A DNA stretch of 54,542 bases, from contig JAUSOK010000034.1 in NCBI GenBank assembly GCA_030656035.1, positions 1 through 54,542 on the forward strand. The letters are read 5' to 3'. Position 1 is the stretch's first letter. Each line of letters begins with the position of its first letter. The translations under genes and the position numbers were made by a program. The notes below the pieces were generated by a model. That model was given only the letters and a program-made list of their open reading frames with translations. It ran no database searches and was not told where the DNA came from. Source of the DNA: Syntrophales bacterium. Lineage in GTDB: Bacteria; Desulfobacterota; Syntrophia; Syntrophales; Fen-1087. Below are positions 2,824 through 54,344 of this stretch, piece after piece.

Positions 2824-3711
2824 CTATATCTCCCGGTGTGCTGCGGGGTCCTTTACCGCCGGTGATCGCTTGGCCGTTTCGGATTGTGTTCCCCTGTTGT
2901 AATTGTTCACGATCACGTCCCACACCCGTTCAATTAACTGTGCACGGTTTTCAACCGTATAACCGGTTACGTCGACGGGCTTGTCGATCATGATGGTGAC
3001 TTTGCCCGGATTGATCCGCAAAGAACGCTTGGGCATGATCGCACCCGCACCGATAATAGAGACGGGGACGATCGGAACCCCGGCCTTGATGGCCAGGTGA
3101 AACATGCCCTGCTTGAAGGGCTTCATGACGCCGTCCTTGCTTCGTGTCCCCTCGGGAAAGGTCATGACGGATTTTCCCTCTCTGATTTTCTGTGCTGCGA
3201 TATCGAGACTCTTCAGGGCTTTTTCATGGTTCTGCCGGTCAATTTCGATATATCCGGCGTTTCTCATTGCACCGCCAAAGATGGGGATCTTAAAGATCTC
3301 TTTTTTGGCAATCCAGCGGAATTGTCCGGGAATGAAACCGAGAACGATTAAAATATCAAAATCGCTCTGGTGGTTGGACATGAAGATTTGCGGTTTTCCT
3401 ATCAGTACGTTTTCTGCCCCGACCACCTCCACACGGGTACTCGACAGCAACAACAGAATTTTTGCCCAGATCCTTGCAATATGGTGTATTTTGTTTTCGC
3501 CGGGTGAGATCAGGCCGAAGATAATGCAGCATGCCGACAGATAGCCCGTGACCGACACACAGAGCACCAACATAATCATTGAACGCAGCATAATCATCCT
3601 CAGTCGTGAAGGGATATGGAATACCCGATTCAACAATAATCTTCTAACCCATGCTGTGGTTGAAGTCAATAAAGATTGTAGGCGGATGCCGGTTTTCTTG
3701 TTCAGAGACAA
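2824..3711 (-). CDS. plsC: 1-acyl-sn-glycerol-3-phosphate acyltransferase (PlsC family)
   Basis: NHQSDFD acyltransferase motif and FPEGTRSKDG motif. Confidence 0.88.
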   Translation of the reverse strand: MSLNKKTGIRLQSLLTSTTAWVRRLLLNRVFHIPSRLRMIMLRSMIMLVLCVSVTGYLSACCIIFGLISPGENKIHHIARIWAKILLLLSSTRVEVVGAENVLIGKPQIFMSNHQSDFDILIVLGFIPGQFRWIAKKEIFKIPIFGGAMRNAGYIEIDRQNHEKALKSLDIAAQKIREGKSVMTFPEGTRSKDGVMKPFKQGMFHLAIKAGVPIVPVSIIGAGAIMPKRSLRINPGKVTIMIDKPVDVTGYTVENRAQLIERVWDVIVNNYNRGTQSETAKRSPAVKDPAAHREI

Positions 3712-10150: not shown

Positions 10151-10567
10151 GTGATCATTTACGATCTTAAATGTAAGAAAAATCACGAATTTGAGGGCTG
10201 GTTCAAAGACAGCGCGGCTTTTGAACAACAGAAAGACCTGAACCTGATCACCTGTCCCGTCTGCGGGGAGGCGGGTGCGGAAATGGTACCATCAACCCTG
10301 GCTATTCTGGGTCGCGATCTGAAAGCATCGGAGAAAAAACAAAATGGGGCACTGACCCCCATGAAGGCTGTGCAACGGTTGAATGAGTTTCTTGAAAAGA
10401 ATTTCGATGATGTGGGCGACGCATTCAGTGAAGTGGCGATGAAAATCCATGACGGCGAAGAAGAGGCCAGAAATATCAAGGGAACCACGACCCGCCAGGA
10501 AGAAGAACTGCTCCGCGAGAAAGGGGTCCCGTTTTTCAAAATTCCTGTCATGAAACTTGATAGCTGA
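10151..10567 (+). CDS. DUF1178 family protein
   Basis: MIIYDLKCKKNHEFEGWFKDSAAFEQQ...CPVCG. Confidence 0.85.
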   Translation: MIIYDLKCKKNHEFEGWFKDSAAFEQQKDLNLITCPVCGEAGAEMVPSTLAILGRDLKASEKKQNGALTPMKAVQRLNEFLEKNFDDVGDAFSEVAMKIHDGEEEARNIKGTTTRQEEELLREKGVPFFKIPVMKLDS

Positions 10568-10681: not shown

Positions 10682-12991
10682 TTGAAAACGCTACCTCACA
10701 ACATCTTGAATACCATCGGCCATACCCCCCTTATTGAGATTTCAAAATTGAATCCTAATCCTAAAGCAAAAGTTTTTGCAAAGATGGAGAGTTTCAATCC
10801 CGGCGGCTCCATCAAGGACAGGGTGGCGCTTTTCATGATCGAAGGGGCGGAGAGGCGGGGTGAGCTCACGAAGGAAAAGATCATTCTCGAAGCCACGAGC
10901 GGGAATACCGGCATTGGCTTGGCCATTGTCGCCGCGGCCAAGGACTACCGGCTGTGTCTGACCATGTCGGAAGCCGCCAGCGAGGAACGGAAAAAAATAC
11001 TCAAAGCCCTGGGCGCCGAATTATTTTTTACGCCGGCCGCCCAGGGGACCGATGGCGCAATCGAAATGGCCTATGGCCTCATGCGCGAGCATCCGGGCAA
11101 GTATTTTGGCGCCGACCAGTTTAATAATGAGGACAACGTCGCTGCCCATTACCATGGAACGGCTGAAGAAATCTGGCGTCAAACCGATGGGATGGTGACG
11201 ATGGTGGTGGCGGCGCTGGGGACGACGGGAACGGCGATGGGGATTTCCAAACGCCTGAAAGAATTGAACCCGCAGATCATGATTGTCGGGGTGGAACCCT
11301 ATCTTCAGCATAAGATTCAAGGCCTCAAGAACATGAAAGAATCTTACCAGCCCGGTATTTACGATCGGAGCCGTCTCGACGAAAAAATAAATATTCTCGA
11401 TGAAGATGCTTTTGAGATGTCCCGGCGCATGGCCCGGGAAGAGGGCATCCTGGTGGGAATGAGTTCGGGCGCGGCCATGCATGTTGCCTTGCAGAAAGCC
11501 ATGGAACTGCAAGAAGGCCTGATCGTCGTCATCTGCCCGGACAGCGGTGAGCGATATCTAAGCACGGAGCTTTTTACCGATAAGGCCCAAACAACCCTGC
11601 GCCTCTTCAATACACTGACGCGGGAAAAAACCTTCTTTAAACCCATCAATGCCGAGGAGGTTCGCATTCATTCGTGCGGGCCGACGGTGCATGGGGTGCC
11701 GCACATCGGCAGCTACCGTCGCTTCGTCGTCTCCGATATGATCCGCCGGTATCTTGAATTTAAGGGATATAACGTGCGGCATGTCATGAACATCGTCGAT
11801 CTGGCAGACCGTTCCATCAAAGGGGCTGAGCTCGCCGGTTTGGATCTCCATGTCTTCACCGAACGCAGCATGACCGCATTTCTTGGAGATATCGATAAGT
11901 TAAATATTAAGAAGGACAAGGATTATCCAAAGGCCAGTGAGCATGTCGAGGATATGCTCAATTATGTCGAAAAGTTGATGGAACGGGGTTATGCCTATGA
12001 AAAATTACGGTCTGTCTATTTTGATATCTCCAAGCTCAATGACTATGGCTGTCTGTCCCACATCGATCTCGGCAAAGTGAAGCAGGGCAGAACCGTCGAA
12101 CAGGATGATTATGAAAAAGACAGCCCTGTGGATTTTACCCTCCTGAAAAGATCGACTCTTAACGAATTAAAACGGGGCATCTATTTTAAAACCCGATGGG
12201 GGAATGTCCGGCCCAGCTGGCATCTGGAATGCGCCGCCATATCCCTGAAGTATCTGGGTGAAACATTTGATATTCATGCCAGCGGGGCGGATATTGTTTT
12301 CCCCCACTGTGAAAACGTCATGGCCATCGGGAAGGCCGTAACGGGCAAAAGGATGGCGAATTACTGGCTGAATACGGAACTGCTCATGATCGACGGCAAA
12401 AAAATGTCCCGTTCCCTCAATAACGTGCTTACGATAGAAGATTTGGAAAGGCAGGGATATCACGGTCCGGAGATCCGTTTTTTTCTGTTGAGCGCGCATT
12501 ATCGCAAGCCGCTGAACTTTACCTTCGGTGCGCTGGACACCGCAAAGAATACCGTACGAAAGCTGAATGGATTTGTTCAGAGGCTGATCCGCTATCGCCC
12601 CGGAACAGGCTTTTCCGACACAGATCAATGCATTTATGATGTCAACCAGTCCTTCACGAACGCCATGGATGATGATCTGAATGTTTCAGCAGCACTGGCT
12701 TGTCTTTTTGAATTTGTGAAAAAAATCAGTATTCCGCTTTCCCATGCCCACCTGAATGAGAAGGAGAGGGATCGTATCCTTGCGATGATAAAAAAAATGG
12801 ATGGTGTCCTCGGTGTGATGAACTTCGAGGAGGAGGTCATCAGCGAAGAAGTCTGGAAGCTTTTGCAGGAAAGAGAAGCCCTGAGGCGGGCCGGCCACTG
12901 GAAGGCATCGGATGATATCCGGGACAGACTCTTGACCATGGGCATTGAAGTTTCCGATATGCCCGAGGGAATGGTGTGGCGTTTGAAATAA
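10682..12991 (+). CDS. Fusion: cysteine synthase (PLP, CysK/CBS family) + cysteinyl-tRNA synthetase-like protein
   Basis: N-terminus has NTIGHTPLIEISKL, FNPGGSIKDR (PLP Lys), TSGNTGIGLA, PDSGERYLST. From about residue 305: SCGPTVHGVPHIGSYR, SWHLECAAISL, DIHASGADIVFPHCENVMA, KKMSRSLNN, ending ASDDIRDRLLTMGIEVSDMPEGMVWRLK. One uninterrupted 769-aa ORF with TTG start. Confidence 0.92.
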   Translation: MKTLPHNILNTIGHTPLIEISKLNPNPKAKVFAKMESFNPGGSIKDRVALFMIEGAERRGELTKEKIILEATSGNTGIGLAIVAAAKDYRLCLTMSEAASEERKKILKALGAELFFTPAAQGTDGAIEMAYGLMREHPGKYFGADQFNNEDNVAAHYHGTAEEIWRQTDGMVTMVVAALGTTGTAMGISKRLKELNPQIMIVGVEPYLQHKIQGLKNMKESYQPGIYDRSRLDEKINILDEDAFEMSRRMAREEGILVGMSSGAAMHVALQKAMELQEGLIVVICPDSGERYLSTELFTDKAQTTLRLFNTLTREKTFFKPINAEEVRIHSCGPTVHGVPHIGSYRRFVVSDMIRRYLEFKGYNVRHVMNIVDLADRSIKGAELAGLDLHVFTERSMTAFLGDIDKLNIKKDKDYPKASEHVEDMLNYVEKLMERGYAYEKLRSVYFDISKLNDYGCLSHIDLGKVKQGRTVEQDDYEKDSPVDFTLLKRSTLNELKRGIYFKTRWGNVRPSWHLECAAISLKYLGETFDIHASGADIVFPHCENVMAIGKAVTGKRMANYWLNTELLMIDGKKMSRSLNNVLTIEDLERQGYHGPEIRFFLLSAHYRKPLNFTFGALDTAKNTVRKLNGFVQRLIRYRPGTGFSDTDQCIYDVNQSFTNAMDDDLNVSAALACLFEFVKKISIPLSHAHLNEKERDRILAMIKKMDGVLGVMNFEEEVISEEVWKLLQEREALRRAGHWKASDDIRDRLLTMGIEVSDMPEGMVWRLK

Positions 12992-48909: not shown

Positions 48910-48969
48910 CGGCCATTGCCCCCGGCGTTTTCCATCGTGGCTATAAATGTAAAGAAAGAGAGAGGTTCC

Positions 48970-50451
48970 ATGTCGATTACCCTCTACAACACGCTCACCC
49001 GGAAAAAAGAGGCATTTCAACCTATCCGGGACGGGAAAGTCGGCATCTATGCCTGCGGCATTACCGTCTATGATGTCTGTCATGTCGGTCATGCCCGTTC
49101 CGCAGTTGTATTCGACACGATCACAAGATACCTGCGGCGCCGGGGTTACGACGTAACCTTCGTAAAAAATTTTACCGATGTGGATGACAAGATTATCCAG
49201 AAAAGCCATGAAGCAGGGGGCGGCATTGCGGACATCTCCGAGCGCTATATCCGCGAACATGACGAGGATATGGACCGGCTTGGCGTGGCCCGTCCCTCCT
49301 TTGCTCCCAGGGCCACAACGTACATTCGGGAAATGATCAGCCTGATCGGGAAACTCGCGGAGAAGGGGCTTGCCTACGAGGTGGACGGGGATGTTTATTA
49401 TGCTGTAAAAAACTTTCCGGGTTACGGAAAGCTGTCTGGCCGGAATCTGGACGAGATGATGGCAGGCGCCCGCGTGGACGTGAATGATAAAAAAAGGAAT
49501 CCCCTCGATTTTGCTCTCTGGAAAGCGAGCAAGGAAGGAGAGCCCTGGTGGGAAAGTCCCTGGGGACGGGGACGCCCGGGATGGCACATCGAATGCTCCG
49601 TCATGAGTCAGATCTTTCTGGGGGATACCTTTGACATCCACGGCGGCGGAGAAGACCTGATTTTTCCCCATCACGAAAATGAGATCGCCCAATCCGAGGG
49701 GGCGACAGGCAAACCCCTTGCCCACTACTGGGTACACAACGGCTTCGTCCGGATCAACAGTGAGAAGATGTCGAAATCGCTCGATAATTTCTTTACGATC
49801 CGGGACATGCTGGCGGCTTACCACCCAGATGTTTTGAGACTGTTTCTGCTGCAGAGCCATTACCGGAGCCCGGTGGATTTTTCGGAGGAGGCCCTGGCCG
49901 AGGCGAGGACGGGCATGGACCGCTTTTACAGCGCACTCAAACGGATCAAGGCGTTGTTGGCCCTGCCTTCCGCCGGCGCCGAGGCGAATCCATCCGGATT
50001 GTCAGGGAAGGACAGGGAAATGTATGAAAAGCTGTCATCTCTGCCTGTTCATTTTATCGAGGCCATGGATGACGATTTCAATACGGCCAGGGCGCTGGGG
50101 CATATGTTTGAGGCCGTCCGGTTAATGAACGGGTTTATGGCCGACAGGACATTTGTCCGCTCGCCCGAGACCGTTTTACTTCTTAAAACGGCACAGGATA
50201 TCCTGATCGACCTCGGAGGCGTGCTTGGCTTTTTTCGCACAGATCCCCATGTCTATTTTGAGCAGGACCGGGACCGGGAAGCGGCCAAGAGAGGCCTTGA
50301 CACGGCGGAGATTGAAACCCTCATTACTGCGAGGCAGGCCGCCCGGTCGGCCAGAAACTGGCAGAAGGCCGATGAGATCCGGGACATCCTGGCCGCAAAA
50401 AAAATCACGATCGAGGACTCCCCTGTCGGAACGACCTGGAAGTTCGAATAG
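48970..50451 (+). CDS. cysS: Cysteinyl-tRNA synthetase (canonical)
   Basis: IYACGITVYDVCHVGHARSAVVF; GWHIECSVMSQIFLGDTFDIHGGGEDLIFPHHENEIAQSEG; EKMSKSLDN. Confidence 0.96.
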   Translation: MSITLYNTLTRKKEAFQPIRDGKVGIYACGITVYDVCHVGHARSAVVFDTITRYLRRRGYDVTFVKNFTDVDDKIIQKSHEAGGGIADISERYIREHDEDMDRLGVARPSFAPRATTYIREMISLIGKLAEKGLAYEVDGDVYYAVKNFPGYGKLSGRNLDEMMAGARVDVNDKKRNPLDFALWKASKEGEPWWESPWGRGRPGWHIECSVMSQIFLGDTFDIHGGGEDLIFPHHENEIAQSEGATGKPLAHYWVHNGFVRINSEKMSKSLDNFFTIRDMLAAYHPDVLRLFLLQSHYRSPVDFSEEALAEARTGMDRFYSALKRIKALLALPSAGAEANPSGLSGKDREMYEKLSSLPVHFIEAMDDDFNTARALGHMFEAVRLMNGFMADRTFVRSPETVLLLKTAQDILIDLGGVLGFFRTDPHVYFEQDRDREAAKRGLDTAEIETLITARQAARSARNWQKADEIRDILAAKKITIEDSPVGTTWKFE

Positions 50452-52469: not shown

Positions 52470-54344
52470 TCATTCTTTGAAAGTCATCCTGAGTTCATAG
52501 ATTCCGTCGGCGATCTTCTTTTCAAGGTCAAAACCGCCCTGCTCAAATGTATGCAGCATGGGTTTGTTTTCCGCGAGAACTTCTGCGGTAAAGCCCAGCA
52601 GACCTTCCCGTCTGGCCAGGTAGGTCAGGTAGGACAGCAGTTCCGTTCCGATGCCGCGTTGATGATAATCATCGCGCACGGCAAAGGCCACTTCGGCCGT
52701 ATGCAACTGATCGTCAATATAATATCGTCCCACGCCCAGAATGTGCTCCTTGCCCTCCTGGGATATGACAGCCAATACGGCCATTTCCTTGCTGTAATCA
52801 ATGACGACCAGCTTCTGCAGGCGTTCGTGCGGCATGTCTTTACGCACCGACATGAAGCGGCGGTACATGCTCTGATCAGAAAGGGAGTAAACAAAGGTTT
52901 TCAGCAGGGGCTCGTCGCTCATTTTGATGGGCCTGAACAGAAGACTCACCCCCTCCCTTGTGGTCCGCCAGGTCTCCAGATGTTCCGGATACTCGCCGCT
53001 TTTACCGGGCAGGAAGGCCTGGTCGCGATAAATCAGATCAATCTTTTTGGCTTCCTCGATCAGCCAGTTTCTGAATTTGGGATGGGCGATGCCGATCAGT
53101 TCCATGGCCCGTTCGCGCATATTCTTACCGTGCAGATAGGCGATCCCGTATTCGGTGACCACGTAGCGGACATCCCCCCGGATCAGGGTGGCTCCGGCGC
53201 CCTGCCTCAGGCATGGAACAATCCGGGAAGCCACGTCGGAGGCAGCGGTGGATTGCAGGGTCAGGATGGCCTTGCCCCCTTTGGCCAGAACCGCCCCGCG
53301 CATGAAATCCGCCTGTCCCCCAACACCGCTGTGGGACATCGTCCCGATGGATTCCGCCGTGGCCTGTCCGGTCAGGTCAATTTCCAGGGCGCTGTTGATG
53401 GCGACCATGTTTTCCTGACTGGCGATAACCAGAGGGTCGTTGGTATAATCAACCGTTCTGAACTCGATGGAGGGATTATCGTTGAGATAATCATAGGTAT
53501 CCTTGTGTCCCATGCAGAAGGTGGCCACTGTTTTCCCGCGATTAACGGTTTTTCGGGAATTATCGATGACCCCTTTTTGCATCAGCGCGATGATGCCGTC
53601 GGTAACCAGTTCGCTGTGGACGCCCAGGTGTTTTTTGTCGGAAAGGTGAGACAGGACGGCGTTGGGGATCCGGCCATAACCGACCTGGATCGTGTCGCCG
53701 TCCTCGATCAGCCGGGAAACATATTTACCGATTTGCCGGGCGATGTCCGTATCCGCTTCCGGCTGGTATTCCAGAAGCAGCTCGTCATAGGGGACCAGAT
53801 AGTCCACATCATTGACATGAATAAACGTATCGCCGTGAACGCGCGGCATGTGGGTATTGACCTGCGCCACGACGAGCCTTGCCTTTTCCGCCGCCGCTTT
53901 CACGATGTCCACGCTGATGCCGAGACTCATATAGCCATGATTGTCGGGCGGCGACGTCTGAATCAGGGCGATGTCCACACGCACCAGGCCGCGATGAAAC
54001 AGATCCGGGACCCGGGACAGGAAAATCGGGGTATAATCCGCCAGGCCCTTGTTGACGGCATCCCGGGTACTGTCGCCGATAAAAAAGGAGTTGTGGCGGA
54101 AATTCTGCTTGAATTTTTCCGTGGCATAGGGCGCCACCCCCAGGCTCCGCACATGCAGGACTTCCGCGTCAAAAAAGGCCTTGGGATTGGATTTGACATA
54201 GCGGATCATCTCTTGAACCAGATGCTGGGGTTCGGCGCAGGCGGAACCGATAAAGATACTGTTGCCCCGGCGGATATGACCGAATATCGTTGTTAACGGT
54301 TCAAATTTGCCTGGATATTTAATTTTCCAGTCATTCGGCGACAT
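52470..54344 (-). CDS. Acetyl-CoA hydrolase/transferase (4-hydroxybutyrate CoA-transferase-like) fused to a C-terminal GNAT acetyltransferase domain
   Basis: N-terminal CoA-transferase family features (GSACAEPQHLVQEMI, VTDGIIALMQKGVID, GGQADFMRGA, VVTEYGIAYLHGKNMRERAMELIGIAHP), then GNAT features (LLFRPIKMSDEPLLKTF, AEVAFAVRDDYHQRGIGTELLSYLTYLARREGL). Confidence 0.88.
   Translation of the reverse strand: MSPNDWKIKYPGKFEPLTTIFGHIRRGNSIFIGSACAEPQHLVQEMIRYVKSNPKAFFDAEVLHVRSLGVAPYATEKFKQNFRHNSFFIGDSTRDAVNKGLADYTPIFLSRVPDLFHRGLVRVDIALIQTSPPDNHGYMSLGISVDIVKAAAEKARLVVAQVNTHMPRVHGDTFIHVNDVDYLVPYDELLLEYQPEADTDIARQIGKYVSRLIEDGDTIQVGYGRIPNAVLSHLSDKKHLGVHSELVTDGIIALMQKGVIDNSRKTVNRGKTVATFCMGHKDTYDYLNDNPSIEFRTVDYTNDPLVIASQENMVAINSALEIDLTGQATAESIGTMSHSGVGGQADFMRGAVLAKGGKAILTLQSTAASDVASRIVPCLRQGAGATLIRGDVRYVVTEYGIAYLHGKNMRERAMELIGIAHPKFRNWLIEEAKKIDLIYRDQAFLPGKSGEYPEHLETWRTTREGVSLLFRPIKMSDEPLLKTFVYSLSDQSMYRRFMSVRKDMPHERLQKLVVIDYSKEMAVLAVISQEGKEHILGVGRYYIDDQLHTAEVAFAVRDDYHQRGIGTELLSYLTYLARREGLLGFTAEVLAENKPMLHTFEQGGFDLEKKIADGIYELRMTFKE

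Follow-up and report, generated by a model that had tools for sequence, protein, structure and literature searches.

A cysteine synthase joined to a CysRS-derived module in Syntrophales and their relatives: a putative tRNA-Cys-regulated enzyme

The 54,542-nucleotide stretch of Syntrophales DNA analysed here (the window, meaning that stretch at its full length) carries a gene in which a PLP-dependent cysteine synthase of the PALP family continues directly into a module derived from cysteinyl-tRNA synthetase (CysRS). The parts of this gene, together with a second synthetase gene encoded further along, are as follows.

10682..12991, + strand: fusion gene, PALP cysteine synthase plus CysRS-like module, 769 aa, TTG start (Pfam and NCBIfam)
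10706..11542, + strand: PALP module, aa 9-287 (PF00291), with catalytic Lys45 in GGSIKDR, TSGNTG at 72-77 and PDSGERYLST at 286-295, at the module end
11300..11353, + strand: substrate loop, aa 207-224, QGLKNMKES, basic (from alignment; low pLDDT)
11561..11596, + strand: short inter-module linker, aa 294-305 (pLDDT below 50 at 294-303; short in nearly all lineages)
11636..12547, + strand: CysRS-like catalytic domain, aa 319-622 (tRNA-synt_1e, PF01406, 1.5e-86), in a single clade with other fusion modules
11702..11713, + strand: HIGH motif, here HIGS, aa 341-344 (from alignment), lost in several other fusion lineages
12071..12196, + strand: YEKxxPxDFTLLKRSxLxELKxGIY, a stretch specific to the fusions, about aa 464-505; four residues are inserted here compared with CysRS
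12230..12319, + strand: zinc/cysteine pocket, C517, H542, C543 (E. coli H235) and V546 (E. coli E238), to which C332 (11675-11677) also belongs
12401..12415, + strand: KMSKS motif, here KMSRS, aa 574-578 (from alignment)
12653..12820, + strand: DALR_2 helical domain, aa 658-713 (PF09190)
12839..12982, + strand: anticodon-binding domain, aa 720-767 (CysS_C, PF23493)
48916..50451, + strand: separate canonical cysS, outside the fusion (TIGR00435, 556 bits), canonical motifs present

The reading frame runs uninterrupted through 769 codons. Two codons 5' of the TTG stands an in-frame TAA, and AGGGAA precedes the start. With all four Pfam domains above their cut-offs, the sequence-only reading of this locus, which described a single in-frame fusion of a cysteine synthase to a nearly complete CysRS-like module, is borne out, as are its statements that the three PALP motifs are intact and that the window holds a separate canonical cysS. 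Among NCBIfam models, the protein reaches 362 bits for cysKM (cut-off 344) and 391 bits for cysS (cut-off 340), and it does not reach the equivalog cut-offs of the individual cysK and cysM models. An AlphaFold2 model built on 51 orthologues has a mean pLDDT of 85.5 and is confident for each module; confidence is poor at residues 294-303 (the linker) and 207-224 (the substrate loop), and the pTM of 0.62 leaves the relative placement of the PALP and CysRS modules uncertain. Foldseek searches with this model matched CysRS (8qhp/1u0b) and, separately, OASS/CysM. The stretch carrying the four-residue insertion is common to the fusions compared and absent from the canonical CysRS proteins compared, and it may form an interface with PALP. 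Our search of the open full-text literature returned no functional description of a PALP-CysRS fusion; the available parts of a review of duplicated synthetases (PMC9437257) name CysRS* and MshC as CysRS paralogues and do not mention the fusion, nor do the available parts of papers on tRNA-dependent cysteine synthesis.

The fusion is carried by a large group of bacteria from sulfide-rich habitats. A manual count of full-length rows, which includes the window's genome and is a lower bound, places a near-full-length fusion in at least 147 of the 395 genomes that were sampled from the phylum. Among the matches listed it occurs in 80 contigs, which belong to Syntrophales and to other groups formerly placed in the deltaproteobacteria; it is present in most of 60 relatives, and more diverged full-length copies are found in family f60. 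That a frameshift or stop might part the two halves in other assemblies had been raised in the sequence-only reading, and an assembly or frameshift artefact as the origin of the fusion is ruled out by its conservation in about 150 homologues. Two copies look frameshifted: one from a single-contig genome (G073, copy L194), inside the CysRS catalytic domain at about 3267-3303 and either an error or a pseudogene, and one from genome G045, close to the domain junction. No single-ORF fusion was found in plasmid and phage records, the lone long match in the plasmid collection being in two pieces. A phylogeny, one of the checks proposed in that reading for the CysRS module, united the modules of 38 representative fusions in one clade separate from 19 canonical CysRS sequences (SH-aLRT 99), a result consistent with one fusion event.

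In the window, the gene sits between a DUF1178 gene and a tRNA/nusG/ribosomal-protein/rpo region. This neighbourhood is conserved in Syntrophales and is not found in loci L070-L084; being shared in Syntrophales only, it reflects inherited synteny, and a functional gene cluster around the fusion is thereby ruled out. The DUF1178 gene (10151-10567 in the window) is next to the fusion at almost every Syntrophales locus and was found in 60 of the 80 loci. Elsewhere in the window, a gene on the reverse strand (52470-54344) joins acetyl-CoA hydrolase/transferase domains to a GNAT acetyltransferase domain.

The cysteine synthase half is strongly conserved. Its motif residues are retained in at least 98% of the 97 fusions used for all motif counts and are invariant in alignment A1 (n = 51); K45, SGNTG, GTxGT and YLST are all conserved and, except among the closest relatives of the window, almost every lineage conserves PALP better than any other module. 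The fusion is predicted to combine an activated serine with sulfide to form cysteine. The substrate loop of the fusion is basic, with K216 and N217 in all 97 proteins and Lys or Arg at 219 in 96, and free CysK of related genomes has a neutral QGIGAGF at this position. The loop of the fusion (ALRNMDEGFVPELYD) resembles that of Mycobacterium tuberculosis CysM (GLKNMKESYQPGIYD), which uses O-phosphoserine (PMC12910592), a likeness that does not prove the substrate. Such an invariantly basic loop, like that of M. tuberculosis CysM and unlike that of the relatives' free CysK, suggests O-phosphoserine as the best guess, and the first substrate is probably this compound rather than O-acetylserine. 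The likeness is suggestive only, as E. coli CysM has arginines in this loop too. Campylobacter CysM was rejected as an O-phosphoserine precedent because it does not use that substrate.

The gene content of the carriers is informative about what this half might do. In 11 of 21 fusion genomes, one of them the window's, no cysKM-family match other than the fused PALP was found. A CysE match below 1e-40 is found in none of the 11 fusion-only genomes versus nine of the ten that have an extra cysteine synthase, in a comparison that ignores shared ancestry. At a threshold of 1e-10, TIGR01172 detected CysE neither in the window's genome, which is 91% complete, nor in eight further fusion-only genomes, and it gave only weak matches in the fusion-only genomes G025 and G267; a divergent, unrecognised serine acyltransferase may be present in genomes of this kind. 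Given fusion-only genomes without a recognisable CysE, the fused PALP probably makes cysteine from a source other than CysE-derived O-acetylserine. Enzymes of PF01053 are absent from 13 of the 21 genomes, the window's among them, so that a transsulfuration role for PALP there, as a cystathionine beta-synthase, is unlikely. The window's genome (G000) and several complete relatives lack CysE and often also PF01053 (transsulfuration/MetY) enzymes, and in such bacteria both cysteine and homocysteine seem to arise through unconventional pathways.

A more radical proposal is that cysteine formation by the fusion is itself tRNA-dependent, the CysRS-derived module presenting an aminoacyl-tRNA-Cys whose attached precursor would be converted by PALP, giving Cys-tRNA-Cys, or cysteine, without free O-acetylserine. 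Such a bacterial counterpart of the SepRS/SepCysS route would account for tRNA-reading residues and a cysteine synthase on one chain, for the lack of CysE in fusion-dependent genomes and for the basic substrate loop. We nevertheless regard it as highly improbable: the synthetase motifs are lost in several lineages, which leaves nothing obvious to load a precursor onto tRNA, and we know of no PALP-fold enzyme that acts on aminoacyl-tRNA. Neither SepRS nor SepCysS scored above cut-off in the 21 fusion genomes, although each family passes in two of 14 control genomes; a partnership of these enzymes with the fusion was rejected on the same result.

We number the residues of the synthetase half by E. 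coli CysRS, whose zinc ligands we take to be C28, C209, H234 and E238. The window's module keeps HIGS, KMSRS, C28, C209 and H234, has Ser at the fourth HIGH position, and replaces T68 by Val, H235 by Cys and E238 by Val, so that with V546 at this last position it lacks the complete canonical zinc site. Among the 97 fusions, H37 and G39 of HIGH are held in 78, K266 and S268 of KMSKS in 87 and the C28/C209/H234 triad in 78, while the ligand E238 is replaced in 75 and kept in 22, T68 is replaced in 73, and all four zinc ligands survive in only 14. On a 60-row tree HIGH changes state six times, one of these changes belonging to an incomplete canonical row, which puts its loss at about five places within the fusion clade; it has gone together with C28, C209 or both in L076-L084 (except L081), L154, L158 and L166-L168. 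With these catalytic and zinc residues altered, its anticodon residues kept and a clade of its own, the module can fairly be called a divergent CysRS paralogue, as it had been from sequence at first sight.

Pairwise omega lies mostly between 0.04 and 0.23 across all modules and, in the L078-L084 lineage, where HIGH is lost, the remnant of the catalytic domain still gives 0.09-0.22, which indicates that the CysRS module is not decaying freely. In the window's order, constraint on the synthetase domain matches that on PALP (omega about 0.06-0.1); this constraint, with H37, G39, KMSRS and three zinc ligands kept, makes residual adenylation by the Syntrophales form possible. HIGH is retained in 10 of 11 fusion-only genomes versus five of nine others (p = 0.13, phylogeny ignored), which is very weakly suggestive of catalysis.

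These observations bear on the idea, put forward when the locus was first read, that the fusion channels its product into Cys-AMP. As a general function this is not supported, given the repeated loss of HIGH, KMSKS and zinc motifs beside PALP and anticodon residues that stay fixed. A form of it in which the module still activates PALP-made cysteine and charges tRNA-Cys, as an auxiliary CysRS, is unlikely in our view, even with a cysS equivalog score above cut-off, an intact anticodon set and, in Syntrophales, strong purifying selection on a domain that mostly keeps H37/G39, KMSRS and C28/C209/H234. The frequent replacement of E238 and T68, the Ser in the window's HIGH motif, the multiple losses of HIGH (in some lineages with C28) and the constant presence of a canonical enzyme all weigh against it. 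A separate canonical CysRS is encoded in all 20 near-complete fusion genomes tested and in the window's genome, in agreement with the earlier suggestion that the fusion is dispensable for bulk Cys-tRNA synthesis.

What the module has kept throughout is the set of residues associated with the anticodon. R423, R427 (or Lys), an aromatic residue at 432, D436, R439 and D451, which correspond to R731, R735, W740, D744, R747 and D759 of the window's fusion, are intact in 96 of the 97 proteins; on the 60-row tree its single change falls on the short CysRS paralogues, and none occurs among the 38 fusions. In the E. coli CysRS-tRNA complex (1u0b), G34 is contacted by R427, D436 and W432, and by R423 through water (PMC12684709), four of the six members of the set. 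The domain that holds them is the fastest-evolving module, with an identity to the window's sequence of 0.19-0.81 among other fusions and an omega of 0.08-0.23; PALP identity stays at or above 0.58 while that of the anticodon domain drops to 0.19. The same residues are invariant in canonical CysRS, so their conservation may be partly structural. A special tRNA-Cys as the target was rejected: the search of the window's genome yielded one tRNA-Cys, of the ordinary kind with a GCA anticodon.

Structural conservation is the basis of a further alternative, in which the CysRS part is a mere structural or oligomerisation appendage whose tRNA residues are kept for fold stability. A best-conserved PALP, a short linker and dispensable catalysis would all be expected of such an appendage, which we consider unlikely: G34-contacting residues are fixed inside a fast-changing domain, and short CysRS paralogues of the same order persist without any anticodon domain. 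These short paralogues (L185, L186 and L187; also G420:C1:2100834-2101742) are 418-437 aa long and retain an intact KMSKS; in L185-L187 the zinc ligand C209 is replaced by Asp, and L185 falls below both the cysS and MshC cut-offs. By missing the anticodon domain they resemble CysRS*.

The anticodon domain also bears on the small-molecule acceptor that the sequence-only reading had entertained. MshC itself lacks an anticodon-binding domain, and an MshC-like acceptor fits badly with a fusion in which that domain (CysS_C) is kept and conserved. Transfer of cysteine to a small amine acceptor, yielding a low-molecular-weight thiol, would have a precedent in MshC, which is paralogous to CysRS and needs no tRNA for its reaction (PMC2922099). 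It is hardly probable here: the fusion reaches 190 bits with TIGR03447 against a cut-off of 485 (MshC being compared by profile score only), catalytic motifs are lost in several lineages, and the gene has no conserved biosynthetic neighbours.

Across the fusions, then, PALP is conserved, synthetase motifs are lost and the anticodon set is retained. As CysRS catalysis appears dispensable in several lineages and the anticodon residues do not, the function common to all is most simply tRNA-Cys binding, and its union with the cell's cysteine maker suggests tRNA-dependent control of cysteine synthesis. In the explanation we prefer, to which we give about an even chance, the protein is a CysM-like PLP-dependent cysteine synthase with a repurposed CysRS domain that probably still binds tRNA-Cys and would regulate the synthase. 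The CysRS-derived module would dock tRNA-Cys through its anticodon domain, the old active-site cleft would read whether the 3' end of the tRNA is free or charged, and this signal would be relayed to the adjoining synthase, so that cysteine would be made when Cys-tRNA is low. That tRNA-Cys is bound, which way the control runs and what the first substrate is are all inferred. If tRNA-Cys is indeed sensed, a biosynthetic enzyme would be controlled directly, within one polypeptide, by how far the tRNA for its own product is charged, and such control would span a large part of the phylum. It would also be a clear example from nature of tRNA recognition outlasting catalysis in a synthetase, and help to explain the supply of cysteine in several bacteria without CysE and transsulfuration enzymes.

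Among known systems, the fusion shares with CysK and CysM (PLP fold-type II; OASS/OPSS) a full PALP module, a cysKM score above cut-off, the catalytic motifs and a Foldseek match, and differs from them in its CysRS-like module, in a loop that reads GLKNMKES rather than the GIGAGF of CysK and in the many carriers without CysE to supply O-acetylserine. M. tuberculosis CysM, similar in its substrate loop, is a free enzyme that works with the sulfur carrier CysO. With CysRS the fusion has in common the catalytic, DALR and anticodon domains and the G34-reading residues; unlike CysRS, it has altered zinc/cysteine-pocket residues, eroding HIGH and KMSKS motifs, an N-terminal PALP and a clade of its own, and each of the 20 genomes tested has a CysRS besides it. 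MshC and CysRS* are likewise CysRS-derived, and neither is described as joined to PALP. In the available parts of PMC9437257, CysRS*, of an opal tRNA system, is described as having no anticodon-binding domain, whereas that domain is present and conserved in the fusion. SepRS-SepCysS would similarly couple tRNA-Cys to cysteine formation, through enzymes unrelated to the fusion. The closest working analogue of the CysRS half may be HisZ, described in the same parts of that review as a HisRS paralogue without adenylation that mediates feedback on histidine synthesis (PMC9437257). Both are synthetase paralogues attached to the biosynthesis of their own amino acid; HisZ is a separate, class II-derived subunit, whereas the fusion is class I, a single polypeptide with its anticodon domain kept, and the two are not homologous. 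The motif decay seen in the fusion is consistent with a loss of adenylation like that of HisZ, and by analogy its CysRS half may regulate the synthase to which it is joined.
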